Below, one piece after another: positions 3,818-63,534 of a stretch of 64,000 bases of DNA. The first letter of the stretch is position 1. The number at the start of each line of letters is the position of its first letter. The notes beneath the pieces were generated by a model that saw nothing but the letters and a program-made list of their open reading frames with translations, had not been told where the DNA came from and did no database searches. Source of the stretch: a virus; the IMG/VR virus record IMGVR_UViG_3300028837_002527, positions 1 to 64,000 of that record. One strand, given 5' to 3'. Made by a program: the position numbers and the translations under genes.

Positions 3818-4336
3818 ATGGGAGAAAGACATAAAAACGATGATAAGACGATAAGGCTCTTTCGTGATGATTATCGTTTTTTATCTAATTTTCATATGCA
3901 CATGTTTTTTTATGGAAGATATAGATGCGCTTCAGCAGAGCATATTTATCAAGCTATGAAAGCACGATTGGAAAGAGATAAACAAAGAATTTTAAGACTT
4001 GGCACTCCTAAACTTGCAAAGATTGCAGGGCAATATACGAATTTAAAATGTCGAATGGATTGGGGAGAAGTTAAAGTTGATATAATGTATGGTATATTAA
4101 GAGCAAAGTTTAAAATACCAGTATTAAGAAAGAAATTAATTGATACATTTCCTAAAAAGCTGATAGAAGAAAACTGGTGGCATGATAATTTTTGGGGTAG
4201 ATGTACATGTAGTAAGTGTAAAAATAAAGGAAAGAATATGCTTGGAAAGCTATTAATGAAAGTAAGAGATAAAGTAATGAAAGTAAAAAAGAAAAAGAAA
4301 GTAAAAAGGAGGAAGAATGGAGAAGGAAAGAATTAA
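3818..4336 (+). CDS. NADAR (YbiA/DUF1768) family ADP-ribose glycosidase
   Basis: 172 residues. The NADAR fold covers about residues 13-155: FRDDYRFLSNFH, CASAEHIYQAMKA, a central MDWGEVKVDIMYGILRAKF, and the C-terminal WWHDNFWGRC with GKNMLGKLLMKVR. Family members cleave N-glycosidic bonds, and some NADAR proteins remove ADP-ribose from guanine placed by DarT-type toxins. In a phage this suggests defence reversal (inference). A basic tail (KKKKKVKRRK) follows the domain. A GAGGTGA site precedes the start. Confidence 0.8.
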   Translation: MGERHKNDDKTIRLFRDDYRFLSNFHMHMFFYGRYRCASAEHIYQAMKARLERDKQRILRLGTPKLAKIAGQYTNLKCRMDWGEVKVDIMYGILRAKFKIPVLRKKLIDTFPKKLIEENWWHDNFWGRCTCSKCKNKGKNMLGKLLMKVRDKVMKVKKKKKVKRRKNGEGKN

Positions 4337-9375: not shown

Positions 9376-9459
9376 GCTCGTGTGACGGAATTGGAATACG
9401 TGAAGGATTTAAAATCCTTTGCTCGACGGAGTATGTGGGTTCGACTCCCATCACGAGCA
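9376..9459 (+). tRNA. tRNA-Leu (anticodon UAA)
   Basis: The acceptor stem GCTCGTG (9376-9382) pairs with CACGAGC (9452-9458). The D arm has a 3-bp stem and GG in the loop. The anticodon stem AAGGA/TCCTT closes loop TTTAAAA, giving anticodon TAA at 9410-9412. A long variable arm (GCTC/GAGT) marks a class II tRNA, and the T arm closes TTCGACT. CCA is not encoded. It reads UUA, a codon heavily used in this AT-rich genome. Confidence 0.93.
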
Positions 9460-49843: not shown

Positions 49844-50344
49844 ATGAGAGGATATTATCGTACATATTTGGAATATAGAGGTGAATATTCAAATAGAAAA
49901 TTACAGAAAGAATGGGATAGAAAATTACAGAAAGAATGGGAGTTTGGTTATTGTATTAAAAGAGTTGTTGAAGAAAATATAATAAATACTCTTGTTCTTG
50001 GAGGAGATAAGGAAAAGGCAAAAAAGAATATAGGAAAATTTTATAGTTACATTGTTTGTCGGGGATACAAAAACAAAAGTTACAAAATAATTAAAGAAAG
50101 ATATTTTAGCAGAAAATGGAAAGCAAAAGACTGGTGCTACAAAGAATATTGTAAAAAGAAAGGAATTGAATTTGAATCTTTACATCATGTTTCAGAAAAA
50201 AGAAAGGAGCAAGGCAAAAAACTTTACAAAAAACTTCAGGAAAAGAAACAGCAAAAACAAACAAATCGTGCCAGATTATCTGGTAAAATAATTCGTAGAA
50301 TTATTAGAAGAAAGGAGTCACACAATGACGAAAGCAGTATCTGA
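49844..50344 (+). CDS. Hypothetical basic protein
   Basis: 166 residues, Lys/Arg-rich, with a tandem RKLQKEWDRKLQKEWEF near the N-terminus and a basic C-terminus (GKIIRRIIRRK). AAAAGGGG precedes the ATG. It overlaps the next gene by 20 bases and so belongs to the AAA+ module operon. Function unknown. Confidence 0.65.
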   Translation: MRGYYRTYLEYRGEYSNRKLQKEWDRKLQKEWEFGYCIKRVVEENIINTLVLGGDKEKAKKNIGKFYSYIVCRGYKNKSYKIIKERYFSRKWKAKDWCYKEYCKKKGIEFESLHHVSEKRKEQGKKLYKKLQEKKQQKQTNRARLSGKIIRRIIRRKESHNDESSI

Positions 50345-51389
50345 AAAAGATAGGGATGTCCTTAATCAGATTTTTCAAAAAGGAGTTTTAATTGATTTGG
50401 ATGTTTCATGGTGGATGGGACAAACAAAACTTCGTCCTGAAGATTTGGGAATTCCTGGAAAAAATATTAATCTGGATTTGTTTTCTCTTGGTAGAAAAAG
50501 GTATATACCTAAAACATGGATTGGAAAATTTAGAAAATATGAGCAATTAGCAAGACAGAATGTTGCTAGATATTGTTTTAAATACAAAAATCTTGGAGGG
50601 TGGTACATTCCAATGGGGGCACTTCGAAAATTGGTTGGAGAGTTGGAGTATTGTAAAGGAGAATTTTACAAAGTAGTTGAAGAATTTAGAAAAAACTATC
50701 CAAGAATAAAAGAAAAAATGATTAAAGAATACGAGAAAGAAACAGATACAATTTATAAAAGGTTAAGGACGTTAACACGTCAGTTACCTGCACAAGAAGA
50801 TTTTAGAAAAATCTTTATGAAAAAGATAAAAGATTTCTATCCTGTAGACCCAACAGATTACTTTAAATTTACTTTTACTTTTTTTGAAATTACAATTCCT
50901 CGTGACTTTCAGGCAAAAGTAACAAATATTAAAAAGAAATTAACAAAAGAGGAACAAAAAACACAAAGAGAAGAATTAAGGAAACAAACATTAATAAATC
51001 AATATAGGAATTCATTTCAAACACAAATTAATGAGTTTCTTGGTTCAGTTGTATTACAGTTAAGAAGTTCAACAGTTGAATTTGCAGAAAGAGTAAGAAA
51101 GCAAATTGAGGGAGGTAAAGTAACAGAACCGAGATTAAATCGAATACGAGAGTATATAGAAAGATTTAAAATGATAAATTTTATAGATGACAGGGAAGTT
51201 CAGAAAGAGTTAGAAACACTTAAAAAACATGTAACAAAGAAGTCAGCAGATGATTTCAACTCTAATCAGGATTTAGAAACACGTCTTCGTGAAACACTTG
51301 GAAAAGTAGTTCAAGCAGCTTCCAAGAATGGAAGTGATGTAATTAAAAAGTCGTTTAGCTACAAACGGCGTATAGTCAGAAAAAAGTAA
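50325..51389 (+). CDS. DUF3150-like partner of the AAA+ ATPase
   Basis: 354 residues, mainly helical, with a conserved-looking N-terminus (FQKGVLIDLDVSWWMGQTKL) and LGGWYIPMGALRKL. The layout (variable N-terminal strand, then long helices) resembles DUF3150 proteins that neighbour AAA+ ATPases in phages; the match is from memory and tentative. Ends 12 bases before the ATPase. AAAGGAG upstream. Confidence 0.5.
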   Translation: MTKAVSEKDRDVLNQIFQKGVLIDLDVSWWMGQTKLRPEDLGIPGKNINLDLFSLGRKRYIPKTWIGKFRKYEQLARQNVARYCFKYKNLGGWYIPMGALRKLVGELEYCKGEFYKVVEEFRKNYPRIKEKMIKEYEKETDTIYKRLRTLTRQLPAQEDFRKIFMKKIKDFYPVDPTDYFKFTFTFFEITIPRDFQAKVTNIKKKLTKEEQKTQREELRKQTLINQYRNSFQTQINEFLGSVVLQLRSSTVEFAERVRKQIEGGKVTEPRLNRIREYIERFKMINFIDDREVQKELETLKKHVTKKSADDFNSNQDLETRLRETLGKVVQAASKNGSDVIKKSFSYKRRIVRKK

Positions 51390-51401
51390 GGAGGTACATT
51401 A

Positions 51402-52964
51402 ATGTCTTTTAAAGAAGAGTTTAAAGCTCACATAAGTGCAGGTTATCCTCTTTTGTATGTAAAAACGTACGAAGAGAAACGTGCACAAATCACAATAAGA
51501 GAAGTTGCTAAGAGTATTCCAAAACAATGTTTTTTTTGGACAGTAACAGTAGGTCTTTGTGAAGTGGAGTTGAAGGCTGAGGGAACAGGTGAACCTATTC
51601 CAGAGACAATATCTCCAGATGATTTAGTTCGGCATCTGGCAGAAAGTTTTAAGGAGGACCTTGCAATTGTTGTTCTTTTTGATTATCACGAATTTCTTAA
51701 TGACCCAGTAATTAAAAGGAGAATAAGAGATTTGGAAGGAAAGTTTAAAGAGAAAGGAAATAATTTAGTTTTTCTTTCTCCAATTTTAAAAATTCCAGAT
51801 GAGCTTCAGAAGGATATGACATACTTAGAATTTGAGCTTCCAAATCAAAAAGAGCTTGAAAAAGTTGTTAAGGAAATTTCAAAGGATAATGATGTAAAAA
51901 TTGGAAAGGATAAAGTTGAAGCAATTGTAGATTCAATCAAAGGATTGACTACAATGGAAACAGAAAATGCTGTTTCACTTTCTATTTACAAACACAATGG
52001 TATTATTCCAAATGAATTAAGAAAGAGTAAAGTTCAGATAATAAAGAAATCAGGAATACTTGAATATCGTGAAGCAGATACAAACATGAATGATGTAGGA
52101 GGATTTGGAAAGTTAAAAGAATGGCTCCAATTTAGAAAAAGAGCCTTCACAAAAGAGGCAAGAGAATACGGAATTGTTCCTCCAAAAGGGGCTTTACTTC
52201 TTGGATTGCCAGGATGTGGAAAGTCTTTGGTAGCAAAATCAATATCAAGTGAATGGGGTTATCCTCTACTCATTCTTGATATTGGTAAAATATTTGGAAG
52301 TCTTGTTGGACAATCTGAAGAAAACACAAGGCAAGCTCTTCAATTAGCAGAAGCAGTAGCACCATGTATTATGATGGTAGATGAAATAGAAAAAGGGCTT
52401 GCTGGTTCTGCTTCAGGTGGAAAACACGATTCAGGTGTTACTTCTCGTGTTTTTGGAACGATTCTTAATTGGATGCAAGAGAGACAGGCAGATGTCTTTG
52501 TTGTGGCAACTGCAAATCAAATTAAAATGCTTCCACCTGAATTTTTAAGAAAAGGTAGATTTGATGAAATCTTTTTTGTTGACCTTCCTTTTCCAAACGA
52601 AAGAGAAGAAATATTTAAGATACATTTAAAGAAAAGGAAGAGGAAGCCGAATAGCTTTAATATAGATGAATTGGTGGAAGCGACAGAGAAGTTTACTGGC
52701 TCTGAAATAGAAGAAGCGATAAATTCAGCTTTATTTTACTCTTTTGAAAAGAAAAGAGAATTAAAAACAGAAGATATTTTAAGAGCGGTAGAATCAACAA
52801 CGCCACTGTCTAAAACAATGGCAGAAGATTTAAACATTCTTCGTGACTGGGCCAGAGATAGAGCAGTTAATGTTTCTGGTAAAAGGATTAAGAAGATTAA
52901 AAAATTAAGTGGTAAAAGAAGGATTCAAAGGTCAAAAGACGAAGATTCATTTAACCTTAATTAG
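51402..52964 (+). CDS. AAA+ ATPase, Ycf46-like
   Basis: 520 residues. The N-terminal domain (1-210), starting FKAHISAGYPLLYVKTYEEK, matches the degenerate ATPase half of Ycf46. The active half has Walker A LLGLPGCGKSLVAKS (about 265-278), Walker B CIMMVDEIEKG (about 322) and the sensor/arginine region ATANQIKMLPPEFLRKGRFDE. The C-terminal helical lid and basic tail (KRIKKIKKLSGKR) follow. Ycf46 is conserved in cyanobacteria and plastids with poorly known function. Confidence 0.8.
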   Translation: MSFKEEFKAHISAGYPLLYVKTYEEKRAQITIREVAKSIPKQCFFWTVTVGLCEVELKAEGTGEPIPETISPDDLVRHLAESFKEDLAIVVLFDYHEFLNDPVIKRRIRDLEGKFKEKGNNLVFLSPILKIPDELQKDMTYLEFELPNQKELEKVVKEISKDNDVKIGKDKVEAIVDSIKGLTTMETENAVSLSIYKHNGIIPNELRKSKVQIIKKSGILEYREADTNMNDVGGFGKLKEWLQFRKRAFTKEAREYGIVPPKGALLLGLPGCGKSLVAKSISSEWGYPLLILDIGKIFGSLVGQSEENTRQALQLAEAVAPCIMMVDEIEKGLAGSASGGKHDSGVTSRVFGTILNWMQERQADVFVVATANQIKMLPPEFLRKGRFDEIFFVDLPFPNEREEIFKIHLKKRKRKPNSFNIDELVEATEKFTGSEIEEAINSALFYSFEKKRELKTEDILRAVESTTPLSKTMAEDLNILRDWARDRAVNVSGKRIKKIKKLSGKRRIQRSKDEDSFNLN

Positions 52965-52978
52965 AAAGGAGAAGTAAC

Positions 52979-53371
52979 ATGTCTCATTGGACAACAGTCA
53001 AGACAAAAATTAGTGTTAAGAACATAGGAGCGTTGAAAGACGCTCTTAAAGAACTTTTTCCTGAAAATGAGATTCAGGAAAATTCTACAGTGAGAGGTTA
53101 TCGAAGTCCTCAAACTGCACGTCTTGTTTTGAGGGGGAAACGAGGAAATTATGACATTGGATTTACTGAGGGTGAAAAAGGAACACTTTCAATTGTAACA
53201 GATTGGTGGGGGGCCGCTCGAGAGTTTGGGCAACGAGAAAATACTATTAATAAGATTAAACAAGGTTATTCCAAGCATGTGATAGTGAGACAGGCAAAAA
53301 CAAAAGGTTTTTTTATAAAAGAAACTAAAACTAAAGAAGAAGGTATTCGCCTTCATCTTACAAAGTACTAA
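52979..53371 (+). CDS. DUF1257 / Ycf35-like protein
   Basis: 130 residues. The N-terminal MSHWTTVKTKISVKNIGALK and the centre (TARLVLRGKRGNYDIGFTEG, LSIVTDWWGA) are characteristic of DUF1257 (Ycf35). The C-terminal half has YSKHVIVRQAKTKGF. In cyanobacteria this family sits near Ycf46-type and DUF2997 genes; the same set is present here. AAAGGAG upstream. Confidence 0.75.
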   Translation: MSHWTTVKTKISVKNIGALKDALKELFPENEIQENSTVRGYRSPQTARLVLRGKRGNYDIGFTEGEKGTLSIVTDWWGAAREFGQRENTINKIKQGYSKHVIVRQAKTKGFFIKETKTKEEGIRLHLTKY

Positions 53372-54952: not shown

Positions 54953-55061
54953 CCCTATGGGCTTTTAAGGAGCTCCAGAGGAGCTGATTTTGAGTGAAAG
55001 GAGACATGGTTGTCTCATAAAAATTTTCGGTCCACAATTCAAAGGAATGGAGGTAAGTAAC

Positions 55062-56051
55062 ATGGACATGAAAGTACTCAAAAAAACAGCTAAAGATTTT
55101 GGAATTAAGGTCTTAAAAAAAGACGATGAGGAATCTTTAGCAGAGAAAATTCGGGGTTACTTTAGTGAGAAGGATTTTGAGCTTGATGCTCAATGTCCTG
55201 AGTGTGGAGAGGATATTCCAGACGAGGATATGTGTCCTTTTTGCGGGGTGTCTTTTGAGGATGAGGATGAGGATGAGGATGAGGATGAGGATGAGGATGA
55301 GGATGAGGATGAGGATGAGGATGAGGATGACGAGGAAGATGAGGATGAGGATGAGGATGAGGATGAGGATGAGGATGAGGATGAGGATGAAAAACCTAAA
55401 AAGAAAAGAGGTAGACCTAAAAAAGAATCAAAAAAGACAGAAAAGGAAGGAAAGAAGAAAAAAGGGAAAACTGGAAGAAAAAAGGGTTCTCGTAGTTTGA
55501 AGTCAACAATTAAGAAAAAAGGAAAAGAGGCAAGAGGAGCAAAAAAAGGTTCTTTCAATTATAAGGATGCAGTTGAAAAGGTATCCGATATTGTGGAAAA
55601 GGAAGGATATGAAATTAAGGAAAGAGCCAACTGGAATGGTTATTTCCTTGATGGGCTTAAAGTATTTCATGTAGCAAAATCTACAAGGTCGTTTCAACTG
55701 ATGATTACAGTTGAAGGATTTGTTGCTCCAAAGAAAGGTGAATACAGAGAATTTACCAATGAAGAAATTACAAGTGGACACTTAGCTACTTGTATTGGAA
55801 TTCTAAAAACAACAAGTCTTGACGTTGTTGAATCTGCGGTTGCACAGTTAACAAAAATTGCTAAAAAGATTCTTAAGGAAAGGAAGGAAGAAAAGAAAGA
55901 AAAGAAAGAATCAAAAAAGAAGTCAAAGAAAAAAGATACAGAAAAAAAGAAGTCAAAGAAAAAAGATACAGAAAAAAAGAAGTCAAAGAAAAAAGATACA
56001 GAAAAAAAGAAGTCAAAGAAAAAAGATACAGAAAAAAAAGAAGGATATTAA
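55062..56051 (+). CDS. Zinc-ribbon protein with acidic and basic repeat tracts
   Basis: 329 residues. A short SAP-like N-terminus (MKVLKKTAKDFGIKVLKKDD) leads to a zinc ribbon (CPECGEDIPDEDMCPFC, about 46-62). About 45 Asp/Glu residues follow, encoded by GATGAG repeats, then a basic linker, a folded domain (about 165-275: GYEIKERANWNGYFLDGLKV) and four KKKSKKKDTE units. Alternating charge blocks suggest a nucleoid or protein-condensing role. GGAGG at 55049 selects ATG 55062; an in-frame GTG/TTG upstream is possible. Confidence 0.7.
   Translation: MDMKVLKKTAKDFGIKVLKKDDEESLAEKIRGYFSEKDFELDAQCPECGEDIPDEDMCPFCGVSFEDEDEDEDEDEDEDEDEDEDEDEDDEEDEDEDEDEDEDEDEDEDEKPKKKRGRPKKESKKTEKEGKKKKGKTGRKKGSRSLKSTIKKKGKEARGAKKGSFNYKDAVEKVSDIVEKEGYEIKERANWNGYFLDGLKVFHVAKSTRSFQLMITVEGFVAPKKGEYREFTNEEITSGHLATCIGILKTTSLDVVESAVAQLTKIAKKILKERKEEKKEKKESKKKSKKKDTEKKKSKKKDTEKKKSKKKDTEKKKSKKKDTEKKEGY
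55257..55390 (+). repeat. GATGAG hexanucleotide microsatellite
   Basis: About 22 copies of GATGAG, interrupted once near 55328-55340 (GACGAGGAAGAT). It encodes alternating Asp-Glu. The six-base unit keeps frame, so copy-number change alters only tract length. Confidence 0.95.
55921..56040 (+). repeat. Four 30-bp tandem repeats
   Basis: Identical 30-bp units at 55921, 55951, 55981 and 56011 (last two bases of the final copy differ), encoding the ten-residue unit with KKKSKKKDTE. Near-perfect identity points to recent expansion. Confidence 0.95.
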
Positions 56052-56201: not shown

Positions 56202-57551
56202 ATGAAAGAAAATATTATTTTAGGAGGAGGTATCTCCGGTTTAATTTTTCAATTTTATAATCCTGAATTTTTATTAATAACTGATTCGTTTGGCGGTATG
56301 CTTGAAAATGAAAAAGATTTTGGTGTAATGACATTGTGGGATACAAAAACAACAAGGCAATTACTCACTGACCTTGAAATAGAAATAAAACCAAAACATT
56401 CAGATATTCATTATTATTTTAATGGAAAAATTTATAAGGAAGCTCCTTCTCTGTTAAGAGAAGAGCACATAAGAAAAAAAATGGGACCATTAAGTTCTCT
56501 TATTGATTTTAAGGATTTGACTCTTTCTACAGATAAAACGAACTATATTCCATCTCTTAAAGTTGATTTTATTGAATTGTTGAAAAAGTTACGTAATAAA
56601 TTAAATAGACATATTGTAGGAAGAGTTACTAAAATAAATGATGAATATGTGATAGTTAATATAGGAGAAGAAAACAAACTTGATTATCATACACACATGT
56701 TTAAGTATAATGCATTAATCTCTACATTACCTGCTTTTGTTTTTTGGGATATATGGAATGGTAAAAATTGCAAAGAAATATGTAACTTAGATGAATTTAA
56801 TTATACATCAACTACAAATATATCAATGAAAAAGCTTGAAGGCAAATTGAAATCAAAGTTAATAGATTCAGGATGTTTGTCAGAAAATTTTCAACATTAT
56901 GTTTATTTTATGGATGATAGTCCATATCATAGATTATCTCGCACAACATCTGGAAAATATTGTATTCAATTTCCTGGTGAATATTCCATTGAAAAAGTAA
57001 GTAAAATTTTAGATATTCCTATTAGTAAATTAAAAATAAGAATTAACAAAATAGGACAATTTGTTTCTCATAAAGGGAACATACCTCCAGATAATATTAT
57101 GTTTCTTGGCAGACATGCTCAATGGGATTATAAAATTAAAGTTCAAGATATAGTTAGATTTTCTATGTTTTCAAAGTTCATGTGGCATCGTATGAGACAA
57201 GTACAAACAAGATTTAATAAAAATTTTATAAAGTTTAATGAAATTACATTTGAAGAAAGACAAAGGAAAACAGAGAAGTGGTTGCTTCATTTATTTAGTG
57301 AAGTAAATGAATTTCTCAATGAAATAAATTGGAAAATGCACAGAACTCATAAAGAAGTATTTAGACAGAAAATAATTGAAGAATGGATTGATATATTTAA
57401 ATTTTTATTGGGATTAGCAGATGTCTGGGGAATAACTTCTTTAGAAATTTTCAATATGTTTATGGAAAAAAGTAAAATAGTAGAACAAAAATATTATAAA
57501 GAAATGGAGGAAAAAGATGAAGGAGTTTCAAGAGAAGAAAGTTCTAAATAA
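56202..57551 (+). CDS. FAD oxidoreductase fused to all-alpha NTP pyrophosphatase
   Basis: 449 residues. Residues 1-335: a flavin amine oxidase/UDP-galactopyranose-mutase-like enzyme with dinucleotide loop GGGISG (8-13) and a C-terminal FAD loop (NIMFLGRHAQWDY). Residues about 345-440: an all-alpha NTP pyrophosphatase (MazG/dUTPase type) with the metal motif EVNE ... EWID. The fusion precedes ThyX and a dTMP-kinase-like gene, so the pyrophosphatase probably hydrolyses dUTP to dUMP. TGGAGG upstream. Confidence 0.7.
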   Translation: MKENIILGGGISGLIFQFYNPEFLLITDSFGGMLENEKDFGVMTLWDTKTTRQLLTDLEIEIKPKHSDIHYYFNGKIYKEAPSLLREEHIRKKMGPLSSLIDFKDLTLSTDKTNYIPSLKVDFIELLKKLRNKLNRHIVGRVTKINDEYVIVNIGEENKLDYHTHMFKYNALISTLPAFVFWDIWNGKNCKEICNLDEFNYTSTTNISMKKLEGKLKSKLIDSGCLSENFQHYVYFMDDSPYHRLSRTTSGKYCIQFPGEYSIEKVSKILDIPISKLKIRINKIGQFVSHKGNIPPDNIMFLGRHAQWDYKIKVQDIVRFSMFSKFMWHRMRQVQTRFNKNFIKFNEITFEERQRKTEKWLLHLFSEVNEFLNEINWKMHRTHKEVFRQKIIEEWIDIFKFLLGLADVWGITSLEIFNMFMEKSKIVEQKYYKEMEEKDEGVSREESSK

Positions 57552-58446
57552 AGTTTGTTTTGGAGAAAAACCAGCTTTTGGAATTAAAGATGCAGTTACA
57601 AGTATTTCTGTTGAGTTAGTAGATTATCCAGAAGAAAGTTCTTTATATAGTACTATGTTTCAATTTATTATGGGTTCTTATGGGAATGAACCAAATAAAT
57701 TAATAGAATACGTCCCAAGTGATGAGGAGATAGAAGAAGTAGTTGAGGCGTCATTGAAAGGAGAAGCATTACCATTAGCGATGGAAATTCCAAAGTTTAC
57801 ATTTCGAGTTAATGGAATTGATAGAATTATAACACATCAAATTGTAAGAAGCAGAATTGGAGTTGTTTATTCGCAGCATTGTACTGGTGATAATGATATT
57901 AGGCATGTTAATTATCTTATACCACATGCAATAGCGAAGTTAAGAAAGAAAAGTCCAGCATGGAATGAAAGAATAGGTAAATTTTTAGTAGAATCTAAAG
58001 AGATTTATGCTGATTTGATTGATAAAGAAAATATAAGTATTCAGGATGCAAGAGGATTTATTTTACCTCTTATGGAAACTTACATTTATATGAGTTGTAA
58101 TTATATGATGATAAGAAATTTTGTAGCAAGAAGATTATGTGCAAATGAAACACATCAAATGCAGTTTATTGCACATTCAATGAGGGAATTAATAAGAATT
58201 AGGTTTCCTTTACTTGGTAAGTATTTACAAGGCACTTGTGATAAAATAAAAAAATGTGTGTTTAAAAAAAATGATTCGATATTTGCTGGTTCTGTTTATT
58301 ATCCATGTGGAAAATATCCGAGATTTGATAATGAAGGAAAAGAAATACCAGTCGACCCAGAAAAATTTATACACAAAGAACCTTCAAGTTCTATGAGGGG
58401 AATACAATCAGTTGCAGAAAAATATAAGGAGGATTTAGCATTATGA
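57517..58446 (+). CDS. thyX: ThyX-like flavin-dependent thymidylate synthase (divergent)
   Basis: 309 residues. The core aligns with ThyX: FTFRVNGIDRIITHQIVRSR and downstream ETHQMQFIAHSMRELIRIRF. The signature normally written RHRxxSxNExSxR appears as RSRIGVVYSQHCTGDNDIRH, so the second Arg-His and the Ser/Asn-Glu positions are altered. It may make dTMP or a modified pyrimidine such as a hydroxymethyl derivative (inference). It overlaps the preceding gene by 35 bases. Confidence 0.75.
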   Translation: MKEFQEKKVLNKVCFGEKPAFGIKDAVTSISVELVDYPEESSLYSTMFQFIMGSYGNEPNKLIEYVPSDEEIEEVVEASLKGEALPLAMEIPKFTFRVNGIDRIITHQIVRSRIGVVYSQHCTGDNDIRHVNYLIPHAIAKLRKKSPAWNERIGKFLVESKEIYADLIDKENISIQDARGFILPLMETYIYMSCNYMMIRNFVARRLCANETHQMQFIAHSMRELIRIRFPLLGKYLQGTCDKIKKCVFKKNDSIFAGSVYYPCGKYPRFDNEGKEIPVDPEKFIHKEPSSSMRGIQSVAEKYKEDLAL

Positions 58447-59003
58447 TAATAGCTGTTGAAGGTCCTGATTGTTGTGGAAAAACAACATTTGGAAATGAGT
58501 TAAGTAAAATATTAGATATACCAATTTTAAAATTGAAACAATTTGCTATATGCAAAAAAAGAAGTGAGACAAAATGTTGGGCACAAGTATCTTCAATGGA
58601 AAATTTTTCGCATAAGTTAAATTTTATATTGGATAGATTTTTGTTAACTAATTTAGTATATAACCAAATTTATTATAATATAAAGTCATGTAAAAGATAT
58701 TTCAATTTAATTGAAAAAATGGATGTTATTATTATAATGATAAGTGTATCATTTAAAGAATTAAGAGAAAAAATAAAGGAGCGAAAAGACAATAAAGATG
58801 TAATGAAAGATATTAAACAAATACATCTTATTTACAATATGTGGTATCAGAAAATTAAAGAAAAATATAAATATCAAGATAGAATAATTTTACTAAATGG
58901 ATTTCAACCTATGAAAGACATGTTATGGGAATTAGTTAATAAAAAAGAGTGTTCATTTTGGATAAAAAGTAAGATTTCTCCATGGTTAGAGAAATATTTG
59001 TAA
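58443..59003 (+). CDS. dTMP-kinase-like P-loop enzyme
   Basis: 186 residues. The P-loop VEGPDCCGKTTFGNEL (about 5-20) and the DRFLLTNLVYNQIYY segment (about 63) match the thymidylate kinase DRY motif. A basic lid-like region (REKIKERKDNKDVMK) follows. It would phosphorylate the product of the ThyX-like enzyme. ATGA overlap with thyX. Confidence 0.75.
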   Translation: MIIAVEGPDCCGKTTFGNELSKILDIPILKLKQFAICKKRSETKCWAQVSSMENFSHKLNFILDRFLLTNLVYNQIYYNIKSCKRYFNLIEKMDVIIIMISVSFKELREKIKERKDNKDVMKDIKQIHLIYNMWYQKIKEKYKYQDRIILLNGFQPMKDMLWELVNKKECSFWIKSKISPWLEKYL

Positions 59004-59012
59004 GAGGATAAA

Positions 59013-60065
59013 ATGAAAAAATATACAAAACAAAAATTTAAAAAGTTGTTTCCTTGGTTTTATGCAATAGAAAAAGGATTAAAAGCGCCAATTTCTTTTT
59101 TCCTATTGCCAACTGATAAATGTTTTTGTAAGTGTAATATGTGCACTCATTGGAAAATGAAAGAAAAAAAAGAACTTGATTATGAAACTGTAAAGTCAAT
59201 ATTAGTTGAAGCTCAGAAAAATGGAAGTCAATCTGTTTCACTTTCAGGTGGAGATATATTTGCATGGAAACATGTTGAGAGATTATTTTGTGATAAAAGT
59301 ATTACATTAGATTTTCAAGTAACTACTCCATTAATTTTTCCTATTAAATTTGATTTATCTTTGTTAAAAAGGATAAAATGGTTACGTATATCTTTTGATG
59401 CAATTGATAACAATACATACAAAGAAATAAGAGGAGTAAATAAAGTACATAGAGTTATAGAGAATATTAGAAATATAATTAATAATAATTTAATTAAGGA
59501 TATAGGAATTGCAACAGTACTTCAAAAGAAAAATTTAAATCAAATAGATGTTTTAGCTGACTTTATTAAATCTTATGAAATAAAAAGATGGATAGTTCAT
59601 CCAGTTGATTTTAATCCTGATTTAAGTTTAGATACACAAACTATACATGATGTTTTTAGATATTTAGTTGAAAAATATAGTAAGAGTATTCCTATAAATA
59701 ACTGGGATGTTTATTTGAAAGAAAATAATGAATATGAAAAGGCGAATGATTTACCATGTTACATTGCAAAAATGAAAGCATTTATTGATGCAAGTCTTCG
59801 TATATGGCCTTGTTGTAATTTAGCAATGGACTCAAGAGGCGATGAAGAAAGGGCGGAACATTTAATGATGGGTAGATTAAAACCTGGAAGATATGCAGGA
59901 TTAAGATTTATTAAGATATGGCAAAATAAAAGAAATTATTTAGATAAATTTAATAGTTTTAAAGACATTCATCCTTTATGTAAAAGTAATTGTAGATTTA
60001 AATATTTTTATTACAATCTTGGTTATCATTATTGTAAACAAAGATTGAGCACAATATATCTTTAG
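59013..60065 (+). CDS. Radical SAM enzyme with C-terminal cysteine cluster
   Basis: 350 residues. The radical SAM motif CFCKCNMC places Cys37, Cys41 and Cys44 in CxxxCxxC; the GGD-type loop follows (SVSLSGGDIFAW). C-terminal cysteines (WPCCNL, HPLCKSNCRF, YHYCK) may hold an auxiliary SPASM-like iron-sulfur cluster. It follows ThyX and the kinase in the same operon, which suggests action on a pyrimidine nucleotide or DNA base. Such enzymes also modify peptides, so the substrate is open. Confidence 0.8.
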   Translation: MKKYTKQKFKKLFPWFYAIEKGLKAPISFFLLPTDKCFCKCNMCTHWKMKEKKELDYETVKSILVEAQKNGSQSVSLSGGDIFAWKHVERLFCDKSITLDFQVTTPLIFPIKFDLSLLKRIKWLRISFDAIDNNTYKEIRGVNKVHRVIENIRNIINNNLIKDIGIATVLQKKNLNQIDVLADFIKSYEIKRWIVHPVDFNPDLSLDTQTIHDVFRYLVEKYSKSIPINNWDVYLKENNEYEKANDLPCYIAKMKAFIDASLRIWPCCNLAMDSRGDEERAEHLMMGRLKPGRYAGLRFIKIWQNKRNYLDKFNSFKDIHPLCKSNCRFKYFYYNLGYHYCKQRLSTIYL

Positions 60066-60075
60066 GAGTAAGTGT

Positions 60076-63000
60076 ATGAGTTTAAATTTACCAAATGCTT
60101 TTCCTAAAAAGTTAGATTTAACTCCACCAAAATATAAAAAGGAAAAGAAAACATATGTTCCAATTCATGTTCATTCATCGTTTTCAACATATGATGGATG
60201 TTCTACTATAAAGGAATTAGTAGAAGTTGCAGACAGTCTTGGTATGCATGCAATTTCTTTGTCAGACCACGGAACAATGAGTGGAGTGTTTTCTTTTGTT
60301 CAAGAGTGTAAAGAAAGAAAGATAAAACCAATTGTTGGATGTGAATTATATATTAATGAAAACAGACGTGCAGAAAAGAAAGATGCTTCAAATGAACATT
60401 TATGTTTATTTGCTATGGATATAAGGGGGTATAAAAATTTATTAAAAATTATGTATGATGCTGCTACAAATGGATTTTATTATCGTCCAAGAACTGATTT
60501 AAATTTTATAGAAGAAAATTCTAAAGGACTTATTTGTACAACTGCTTGTTTAAGTTCACCAATAATAAAACCAAGTCTTGAAGGAAATGATGAGAAAGCA
60601 ATAAAGAATTTAAAAAAGTTAAAGAGAATATTTGATGATAGATTGTATATAGAGTTTAATTTTAATGAAATGGATGTGCAAAAAGAGGCTAATAGCAAAT
60701 TAAAAAAATTAGCAAAAAAGTATAGAGTTAAAGGTGTTTATGGACTTGATGTTCATTATACATATAAGGAAGATGTTTGGGTTCAAGATATTTTAAAGTT
60801 AAATCAGAGAAAGACAACAATACATGATTCAAATTGGAAGGATTATGTATTTTCAGCTAGAAGATTATTTTTAAAGCCATATAAAATTGCTTTAAAGGAG
60901 CCAAAATTATTAGGATACGATGATTTTAATTTAAAATATGTTGAGTCGTTACTTGAAGCAACGAATGAAATAGCGGATAGAGTAAACTTTGATTTAGAAT
61001 TTGGAGTGCACGCACCTTATTACACTTATAAAGGAAAAAGAGTAAACGCAAAAAAGTTTTTAAAGACATTAATAAATAGATTTTTTATGAAAAAAATAGA
61101 ACAGAAAATTATTTCAAAAGATAAAAAACAAATTTACAAAAAAAGGATGGAATACGAATACAATTTAATAGTTGAATGCAAATATTGTAATTATTTTCTT
61201 ATTATTTGGGATATGGTAAAAAATTCAAGAAACAAAGGAATTTTTAGAGGAATTGGGAGAGGTTCTGCGGCTGGTTGTTTAATATCCTTTTTGTTAGATA
61301 TTACTGGTGTTGACCCAATAAAATATGGTTTACTGTTTGAGAGGTTTATGGATATTCAGAGGAAGGACCCACCAGATATTGATTTAGACTGGGAGCATGA
61401 ACGCGGCGAAGAAATTGAAGATTATTTAAGGAAGAAATATGGTGAAAAGAAAGTAGCGCATGTATGCACATATTCTTGGTGGAGAACTAAATCTTCCATT
61501 GGAGAAGTGTTTAAAACAACAGGAGAGAAGATAGAAGATATATTTAAATTAAAAAAGATGATTAGGTTTGATGAGGGAGATAACAGAGATAGCAAAAATG
61601 TCGATGCTGCATTAAAGTATGTAAGAGAAAATTTTAATGATAAAACAGTAATGGATATGTTAAATAGGCAGAAAAAGATTGGAATTCCTATTGTAAAGAG
61701 ATTGGTTAATAACATTAAAAATGTAGGAATGCATCCTGGTGGAGTAGTAGTTTCTCCTAAACCTATTTTTAATTATATACCAGTTGTTCGACATAAAGAC
61801 AATATATTGACTGGATTTTCTCAAGGTAGCGATGGAAGAACAGAACTTGAGTGGATTGGATTAATAAAGATTGATAATTTAAGAGTTAAAGCAGTAACTG
61901 TAGTAAAAGAAACATTGAGGTTAATAAAAGAACGACGAGGTATAGATTTATTTGAAGGAATATGGAATATTAATGTAGAAGAAAAAGAAGTTTATAAGTA
62001 TTATCAAGAAGGAAAAACAGAGGGGGTATTTCAAGTAGAATCAGAAGAAATAAATGCATTTATGAAGAGGTTGAAACCAGAATGTTTTGATGATTTAAGA
62101 GCAATTGTAGCGTTATTTAGACCTGGTTCTTTAGCATCTGGTGAAGCAGATAAATTTATAAAGAGGAAACATGACGAGGAAAAAGTTTTGTATGTTCATC
62201 CGATATTAAAAAAGTATGTTGGTAGCACATATGGATGTTTTGTTTATCAAGAACAAATAATGAACATAATGAACGAGTTATGCGGGTTTCCGCGGAGTAA
62301 AACTATGAGATACATGAAATTAATGAAAAAGGTGTATGATACGAGTGATAAAAGAATAATTGGTGTTGTTAATAAAATGAAGAAAGGATTGATAAAACTT
62401 TCTAAATTTACAAAAGAACAAGCTGATAAGTTATGCGATGTAATGTTAGAAAGTTATAATTATATTTTTAATAAATCTCATTCAACATCGTATGCTTTGT
62501 TTTCATATCAGATGATGTGGTTAAAATATCATTATCCTTTGGAATTCTTTTGTGCATTATTATCAAAGACAGAAAACAAAAGAACTGAACATAAGGGTGG
62601 AAAAATAGATATTAAAATAAAGAAATATATTAGTGGTGCAAAAAAAATTGGTATCAATGTTTTACCTCCTAAATTTGGTAAGTCTCAACAAGAATTTATA
62701 ATTGAAAATGATAATGTTCTTCGTGCGGGTACTAATGTTGTTGTTGGATTAGGTAAGTCTGGTGATGAATTATATAAAGTCAAATCAAGAAAAAATGGAA
62801 AGTATTATATTGAAGATATGGTTGAGTGTAAAGATATTAGTTGGGCAAGGTTAAATAAGAGAAAAGTTGAAACGTTAATTAGCATAGGGTTTTTTGATGG
62901 TTGTGTTAAAGTGATTAAAAAAGTGACAAACAAACAATTAATGTATGCTTGGAAAAAGTTTAATGAAAGAAAAAAGAAGAAAGGAGATGTTAAATTATTT

Positions 63001-63534
63001 ATAGAGTGTTTAAGGGAATCTATAAAGGAAGTTGAAGGAAAGTTTAAAAAGAGAGAGCAGATAGCATTTCAAATTCAAGCATTTCGTTTTTTCTTTTCAA
63101 AGCACCCATTAGATTCTAAAAGATTAAGAAAAGTTATAGAACGATATAATAATGATGTGAGCAAAAGCACATTAAAAATAAAAGATGTAAATTCAATGAA
63201 TAAATCAAAAAATAATAGAGGTACTATTATAGGATATATTAATGAGATAAGAATTACAAAGCCCAGAAGAGGGCCATCTGCTGGTGAGAAAATGGCTATT
63301 GTTGGAATTGAGGATTCAAAGGATAAAGCAAAAATATTAATTTGGCCTGAGTTTTATTCAATAGACAGGTATAAAAAGATATTAGTTGAGGGAAATATAG
63401 GTATTTTTAGGGTTAAAAGAAAATATAGCAATGATGAGGATGAATCAAGTACTTGGGAATTATTGAGTGTTGGTAATAGAGCGCATTTAATATCTGATAA
63501 AGATTTAAAGAAAATAGTAAGTAAAAGAGGTTGA
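60076..63534 (+). CDS. dnaE: DNA polymerase III alpha subunit (DnaE-like)
   Basis: 1152 residues, about full length. An N-terminal PHP domain (HVHSSFSTYDGCSTIKELV ... SLSDHGTMSGVF, about 27-290). The palm has GIGRGSAAGCLISF (about 392) and the catalytic PPDIDLDWEHERG (about 431-443). Fingers carry KSHSTSYALFSYQMMWLKYH. The C-terminal part includes an OB fold. Most phages use family A or B polymerases, so a phage-encoded replicase of this class is less usual. It acts with the helicase and primase upstream. Confidence 0.92.
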   Translation: MSLNLPNAFPKKLDLTPPKYKKEKKTYVPIHVHSSFSTYDGCSTIKELVEVADSLGMHAISLSDHGTMSGVFSFVQECKERKIKPIVGCELYINENRRAEKKDASNEHLCLFAMDIRGYKNLLKIMYDAATNGFYYRPRTDLNFIEENSKGLICTTACLSSPIIKPSLEGNDEKAIKNLKKLKRIFDDRLYIEFNFNEMDVQKEANSKLKKLAKKYRVKGVYGLDVHYTYKEDVWVQDILKLNQRKTTIHDSNWKDYVFSARRLFLKPYKIALKEPKLLGYDDFNLKYVESLLEATNEIADRVNFDLEFGVHAPYYTYKGKRVNAKKFLKTLINRFFMKKIEQKIISKDKKQIYKKRMEYEYNLIVECKYCNYFLIIWDMVKNSRNKGIFRGIGRGSAAGCLISFLLDITGVDPIKYGLLFERFMDIQRKDPPDIDLDWEHERGEEIEDYLRKKYGEKKVAHVCTYSWWRTKSSIGEVFKTTGEKIEDIFKLKKMIRFDEGDNRDSKNVDAALKYVRENFNDKTVMDMLNRQKKIGIPIVKRLVNNIKNVGMHPGGVVVSPKPIFNYIPVVRHKDNILTGFSQGSDGRTELEWIGLIKIDNLRVKAVTVVKETLRLIKERRGIDLFEGIWNINVEEKEVYKYYQEGKTEGVFQVESEEINAFMKRLKPECFDDLRAIVALFRPGSLASGEADKFIKRKHDEEKVLYVHPILKKYVGSTYGCFVYQEQIMNIMNELCGFPRSKTMRYMKLMKKVYDTSDKRIIGVVNKMKKGLIKLSKFTKEQADKLCDVMLESYNYIFNKSHSTSYALFSYQMMWLKYHYPLEFFCALLSKTENKRTEHKGGKIDIKIKKYISGAKKIGINVLPPKFGKSQQEFIIENDNVLRAGTNVVVGLGKSGDELYKVKSRKNGKYYIEDMVECKDISWARLNKRKVETLISIGFFDGCVKVIKKVTNKQLMYAWKKFNERKKKKGDVKLFIECLRESIKEVEGKFKKREQIAFQIQAFRFFFSKHPLDSKRLRKVIERYNNDVSKSTLKIKDVNSMNKSKNNRGTIIGYINEIRITKPRRGPSAGEKMAIVGIEDSKDKAKILIWPEFYSIDRYKKILVEGNIGIFRVKRKYSNDEDESSTWELLSVGNRAHLISDKDLKKIVSKRG

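Follow-up and report, generated by a model that had tools for sequence, protein, structure and literature searches.

What product a phage makes when it joins enzymes of pyrimidine nucleotide metabolism to a flavoenzyme and a radical S-adenosylmethionine (SAM) protein is the question raised by positions 56202-60065 (+ strand) of the window, which is the 64,000-nucleotide stretch of IMG/VR virus record IMGVR_UViG_3300028837_002527 analysed here. The locus features four genes in series that overlap or are separated by short gaps, with the gene for the DNA polymerase III alpha subunit next downstream. Gene 1 encodes a flavin adenine dinucleotide (FAD)-type oxidoreductase fused to a dUTPase_2 domain, gene 2 a ThyX-like protein, gene 3 a thymidylate-kinase-like protein, and gene 4 a radical SAM protein. 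A first-pass annotation had given these coordinates and enzyme assignments, and they are borne out by the open reading frames (ORFs), Pfam and PHROG matches, a predicted fold, and conservation in a related metagenomic contig, L001. The core of the operon is a widespread pair, the FAD enzyme and the ThyX-like protein, that would act at the dUMP/dTMP step, and the two proteins very probably work together.

Gene 1 (56202-57551, + strand) is an ORF of 449 amino acids that features two domains. The C-terminal dUTPase_2 domain (57162-57551, PF08761) lies at residues 328-436 and scores 26.5 bits against a Pfam cut-off of 22.9, which places it in the family; it also has PHROG dUTPase matches, and the metal-binding ExxE...ExxD motif is intact, as EVNE...EWID. 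The N-terminal FAD-type domain (56202-57161) is less readily placed by sequence. Residues 1-320 have no match in Pfam, PHROG, or NCBIfam, and sequence searches of the domain against solved structures matched none, whereas two motifs stand out, GGGISG at residue 8 and GRHAQW at residue 303. An AlphaFold2 model of the domain, built from an alignment of five diverse homologues, is of moderate confidence, with a predicted local distance difference test score (pLDDT) of 68 and a predicted template modelling score of 0.61; an earlier AlphaFold model of the full-length fusion with three sequences (pLDDT 47.8) was not used. Foldseek gave L-amino acid oxidase as the best match (E 5.6e-12), and VIA-align matched UDP-galactopyranose mutase (UGM; 4dsg, Z 14.8, root-mean-square deviation 4.4 over 282 residues) and protoporphyrinogen oxidase (PPO; Z 14.7), with the fold spanning residues 1-312. 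At the moderate confidence of this model, the N-terminal domain has the GR2 flavoprotein fold of the amine oxidases, PPO, and UGM, and FAD binding is predicted from the fold together with the GxGxxG motif. The GR2 flavoproteins thus share the fold of the gene 1 domain, with no detectable sequence match to their solved chains; unlike them, the domain is fused to dUTPase_2 and sits in pyrimidine deoxynucleoside triphosphate (dNTP) operons.

Gene 2 (57517-58446, + strand, 309 amino acids) belongs to the Thy1 family (PF02511), with a score of 68.6 bits against a gathering cut-off of 24.8 (8e-19). It does not reach the cut-off of the ThyX equivalog TIGR02170 (37.9 against 87.9 bits), and neither does the ThyX of a second related contig, L005 (65). 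Structural work on ThyX determined that Arg78, Arg80, Ser88, and Arg90 hydrogen-bond dUMP directly (PMC3498832). In a profile alignment to solved ThyX structures, gene 2 retains the equivalents of Arg78 and Arg80 of the canonical Thermotoga maritima enzyme, TM0449, and features Cys in place of Ser88 and Gly in place of Arg90. It therefore lacks the RHRX7S signature and keeps two of the four dUMP contacts. The Thy1 domain and a late conserved Arg174 are also shared with TM0449; however, the canonical RHRX7SxR motif is replaced in gene 2 by RSR-IGVVYSQHCTGD, and in the degenerate forms generally by R(S/N/Q)R...CTGD. The central His of RHR is Ser in the window, Asn in L001, Gln in a contig designated L057, and Thr in another, L034. 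The stretch CTGDNDIRH is invariant across the ThyX-like proteins of the window, L001, and L057, which indicates that the site is conserved in an altered form and is not decaying.

The connection to known phages arose from a structure match of the FAD domain to a protein of the Pbunavirus phage PA5. In Pbunavirus PA4 the FAD homologue lies about 1.2 kb upstream of ThyX, and a homologue is adjacent to or near ThyX in Wifcevirus Bas101, Cronobacter phage Ss1 (where the genes overlap), Rhizobium phage TM40, and the metagenomic contig L026. Profile comparison with hhalign joined the window-type FAD group to the Pbunavirus/Wifcevirus group with 97.6% probability (E 2.7e-12). A further branch, labelled 'oxidoreductase', is found in the actinophages Dryad and Onyinye near 'phosphatase', DnaE, and ThyX-like genes, and was joined with 97.1% probability (E 6e-11), where unrelated controls did not exceed 0.5%. 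The homologue in one Pbunavirus deposit is named 'UDP-galactopyranose mutase'. FabG-like short-chain dehydrogenases (SDRs) were also seen near ThyX-family genes, at L026:8049-8732, L081:12194-12877, and gp129 of phage SP-15 (L061:27026-27670); the SDR genes of L026 and Bas101 come after ThyX.

Searches with tblastn gave 359 and 120 phage records that carry the FAD enzyme, together about 480; the same program with the FAD-dUTPase and radical SAM proteins of the window gave no matches in the phage collection. Co-occurrence was judged from tallies per host genus and from twelve loci read directly. The numbers of records with FAD enzyme and with ThyX are nearly equal for hosts in Pseudomonas (291/291), Escherichia (27/29), Serratia (9/9), Rhizobium (8/10), Microbacterium (36/36), Mycobacterium (26/26), and Gordonia (46/50), and in some phages that have both, the genes are kilobases apart. 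Phage dNTP genes often cluster beside the polymerase, and the operon could be read as a cassette for ordinary dTTP supply. Its FAD and radical SAM genes would then be independent auxiliaries that share no substrate, and the arrangement would reflect only the clustering of replication genes. The gain and loss of the radical SAM gene among relatives agrees with such a cassette. The matching counts over about 480 records, which hold even where the genes are far apart, argue against it, as does the presence of the FAD-dUTPase_2 fusion in four divergent contigs (the window, L001, L057, and L005), and this explanation is considered improbable.

The altered motif of ThyX and the FAD enzyme go together. 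All 11 ThyX rows that lack the central RHR His, carrying R(S/T/N/Q)R instead, have a FAD partner, as does one of the five RHR rows, that of L005 (16 rows in all); the Fisher p of 0.0027 is indicative only, as the rows are related. In a tree, which labels Dryad and Onyinye as lacking the FAD enzyme although both carry it, the ThyX rows with a FAD partner fall in separate well-supported groups, so that the association is either old or has arisen more than once. The L005 ThyX retains RHRX7SxR despite the FAD-dUTPase_2 fusion in the same contig, and the pair therefore does not need a degenerate ThyX. These results bear on a split or assisted thymidylate synthase, in which the product would be ordinary dTMP: a degenerate ThyX that has lost flavin-site histidines would use the FAD enzyme as its redox partner, the dUTPase_2 domain and the kinase would complete the path from dUTP to dTDP, and the radical SAM protein would be an unrelated accessory. 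The presence of the FAD enzyme in 11 of 11 rows that have lost the His speaks for this explanation, and every core partner sits on the path from dUMP to dTDP. The canonical motif in L005 speaks against it, as does the amine-oxidase/PPO/UGM fold of the FAD enzyme, although a fold does not alone settle function. With the further evidence given below, a split synthase is regarded as a serious possibility, though not as the expected outcome.

The metagenomic relatives show which parts of the operon are kept. In viral contig scans, queries of one protein or of two or three rows picked up L001 and L005 alone; it took the genes next to the polymerase and an FAD alignment of four rows to reach L034 and L057. 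Genome contigs scanned with the alignments of the FAD and radical SAM proteins gave no matches. L001 (88.6 kb) has the complete operon in the same order, with identities to the window of 54% for FAD-dUTPase, 52% for ThyX, 34% for the kinase, and 52% for radical SAM, and a uracil-DNA glycosylase (UDG) gene between radical SAM and polymerase. L057 (95.9 kb) features FAD-dUTPase_2, ThyX with UDG beside it, and a TMK-like gene. In L005 (92.8 kb), FAD-dUTPase_2 is accompanied by two genes of unknown function, a radical SAM/SPASM gene, ThyX, and a polymerase whose C-terminus is UDG-like. In L034 (51.3 kb) the FAD and dUTPase_2 genes are unfused within one dNTP operon of dCMP deaminase, ThyA-like, FAD, HAD/NT5C-like, TMK, dUTPase_2, PolIII, and ThyX. 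The L005 polymerase (L005:15199-19746) is a DNA polymerase III alpha of 1515 amino acids with an HNH-containing intein-like insertion and the UDG-like C-terminal domain, and the L026 polymerase likewise terminates in a UDG-like segment. A UDG that adjoins or is fused to the polymerase (L001, L005) or lies beside ThyX (L057) suits a uracil-excluding phage and thus a split synthase making ordinary dTMP.

Gene 3 (58443-59003, + strand, 186 amino acids) encodes a thymidylate-kinase-like P-loop nucleotide kinase that matches the PHROG thymidylate kinase family (6.7e-18) and resembles SPbeta YorR. Its score against Pfam Thymidylate_kin is 21.8 bits, under the cut-off of 27, which the L001 orthologue passes at 33.8, and against the dTMP kinase family TIGR00041 of NCBIfam it is 25.2 bits, with a cut-off of 83.25. 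Gene 4 (59013-60065, + strand, 350 amino acids) is a member of the radical SAM superfamily (PF04055, 42.3 against 29.5 bits), with the CX3CX2C cluster at C37, C41, and C44, C-terminal cysteines that form a SPASM-like set, and an orthologue in the same place in L001. Its best NCBIfam scores are far under all curated functional cut-offs, and its substrate therefore cannot be named. Radical SAM genes were not detected in the whole contigs of L057 or L034, which are possibly fragments, or in PA4, Bas101, Ss1, TM40, Dryad, or Onyinye, and the L005 radical SAM/SPASM protein has no significant BLASTP similarity to gene 4. The radical SAM gene was accordingly dropped as a defining component, with two of the five operon contigs lacking one and a third carrying an unrelated one; its dispensability agrees with a split synthase. 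The first-pass annotation had called both the FAD and radical SAM enzymes surplus to the conversion of dUTP to dTDP. The hypermodification that it read from them is strengthened by the FAD enzyme, which is systematically tied to divergent ThyX, and weakened by the radical SAM enzyme, which lies outside the conserved core (absent from two of the four relatives and dissimilar in a third).

The operon is best described as a phage thymidylate module whose core would be a UGM/amine-oxidase-type flavoenzyme coupled to a degenerate ThyX. The dUTPase_2 domain, as its family and motif suggest, would yield dUMP from dUTP. The ThyX-like protein, by its family, would bind a dUMP-type nucleotide and move a one-carbon unit to C5, and the FAD enzyme would carry out a redox step on the product or an intermediate of ThyX, as the dUTPase_2 fusion, the adjacency of the genes, and their near-matching distribution suggest. 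Phosphorylation to the diphosphate would fall to the TMK-like kinase, and incorporation to the polymerase of the phage. The product would be a C5-modified dUMP, either a hydroxymethyl or an oxidised derivative, which in the window phage may be tailored further by the radical SAM enzyme. Such a putative C5-modified dUMP entering DNA is favoured over plain dTMP, though with slightly less than even confidence. The fuller proposal is that an undescribed C5-modified deoxyuridine, made by a GR2 flavoenzyme and a degenerate ThyX, replaces some or all of the thymine in hundreds of phages, among them the therapy phages of Pbunavirus and the Wifcevirus phages that are insensitive to restriction, with the radical SAM enzyme decorating it further in the window phage; this may hold but is rather doubtful.

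Several observations support a modified thymine. An extra flavoenzyme would not be needed for dTMP synthesis, and ThyA-family proteins are present in the whole contigs of L001 and L034, so that a split synthase would be a second source of plain dTMP there. Two Thy1 proteins are encoded by SP-15, whose DNA contains hypermodified uracil. Wifcevirus phages Bas98-101 resist the restriction-modification (RM) systems tested, except EcoP1_I, by no known mechanism (PMC11990801), which a split synthase also leaves unexplained. ThyA-family proteins (PF00303 above cut-off) were located at L074:3799-4551, L074:5281-5991, and L034:5138-5782; these phages also encode a ThyX-like protein, and in L034 the FAD gene comes immediately after one ThyA-family gene.

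Other observations weigh against a modified thymine. Pbunavirus DNA is cut by HindIII at AAGCTT (PMC11945000), as would be expected of the ordinary thymine of a split synthase, whereas the cutting of JG024 DNA by SacII (PMC3008698) is uninformative because that site has no T. A scarcity of sites or the action of anti-restriction proteins, among other causes, can also make a phage insensitive to RM, the UDG genes of the relatives fit normal uracil exclusion, and the L005 fusion is paired with a ThyX of canonical motif. No sugar-transfer gene was present among the proteins scanned. The ORFs in the first 50 kb of phage M6 have no match among the window ORFs by BLASTP (E 1e-4), a comparison made without family profiles.

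Another idea considered is that the product does not feed DNA synthesis, for example that the module removes host dTMP/dTTP or alters a free pyrimidine nucleotide as counter-defence. In agreement with this idea, L034, Dryad, and Onyinye have HAD/NT5C-like phosphatases together with the pair; however, a profile of those phosphatases detects no HAD protein at the loci of the window, L001, and L057, and the kinase and polymerase lie directly downstream. A role of this kind is held to be very improbable.

The favoured C5-modified product and a split synthase would both matter beyond this phage. The FAD enzyme carries no known role in about 480 phage records, where it is a 'hypothetical protein' or 'oxidoreductase', and phages of the same host genera bear a divergent ThyX. 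Modified thymine, if it is made, would explain the restriction insensitivity of Wifcevirus, may protect phage DNA, and would have consequences for the DNA of P. aeruginosa phages that are widely used in therapy. Plain dTMP as the product would instead make the pair a flavin thymidylate synthase built of two proteins, a new way of carrying out an essential reaction.

Genes 1-4 are conserved in L001, and in the codon comparison of the two operons position-3 differences (0.60-0.65) are well above those at positions 1 and 2, which identifies them as real genes under protein-level selection. A purine-rich Shine-Dalgarno-like stretch lies just 5' of each of the four. The polymerase gene (60076-63534, + strand) matches Pfam DNA_pol3_alpha (8.1e-64) and a PHROG family (2.4e-250). 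The record is a viral contig of 68,767 bases that also encodes terminase-, portal-, capsid-, and tail-like proteins, a helicase, a primase, a DnaB-type helicase, and RecA. Very long Glu-Asp repeat proteins with zinc-ribbon-like cysteines lie one on each side of the module (54990-56051 and L003:4298-5650) and have L001 counterparts. A DUF3150 protein, an AAA ATPase (PHROG 8638, 1.7e-134), and a DUF1257 protein stand in a row at 50325-53371, in the same order in L001. A NADAR-domain protein (PF08719, 5.7e-21) is encoded at 3818-4336; its family is linked to ADP-ribose/NAD metabolism and is possibly involved in counter-defence. A single tRNA-Leu (TAA) gene lies at 9376-9459.

Among known systems, the Pbunavirus, Wifcevirus, and actinophage pairs share with the window a homologous FAD enzyme and a ThyX-like partner; however, their FAD enzyme lacks the dUTPase_2 fusion, and PA4, Bas101, Ss1, TM40, Dryad, and Onyinye yielded no radical SAM gene. 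Literature searches, with most subscription journals outside their coverage, returned no paper describing the FAD/ThyX pair. The 5-hydroxymethyldeoxyuridine (5-hmdU) pathway of phages M6, ViI, and SP10 likewise combines a thymidylate-synthase superfamily enzyme with a kinase and with FAD and radical SAM enzymes. However, its ThyA-type enzyme is absent here, PF00303 not being found in the 68.8 kb record, which is possibly a fragment, and the M6 radical SAM protein is unrelated to gene 4 beyond the superfamily. Direct kinship with the M6 hypermodification genes, which include an hmdU DNA kinase, a transferase, and a radical SAM enzyme, was dropped, as the window has no M6-like proteins. By these tests the operon falls outside the M6/ViI 5-hmdU pathway, yet it could work in a similar way. 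The hypermodification proposed in the first-pass annotation, which lost ground through these two absences, gained from the linkage of FAD enzyme and divergent ThyX in about 480 records and from the RM insensitivity of Wifcevirus, and may still apply. Its further claim that ThyX in place of ThyA would be a new variant has a precedent, itself a hypothesis, in SP-15, which encodes two Thy1-family proteins, one of them proposed as a hydroxymethyluridylate synthase (PMC5977210). The DNA of SP-15 contains dihydroxypentyluracil (DHPU), and one of its two Thy1 genes adjoins an SDR. SP-15 has ThyX-family enzymes in common with the window phage and also encodes a deoxynucleoside kinase and a UDG; unlike the window phage, no FAD enzyme homologue was found in its record. 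What is new in the window phage and its relatives is the GR2 flavoenzyme partner of ThyX, its fusion to dUTPase_2, and the wide spread of the pair.

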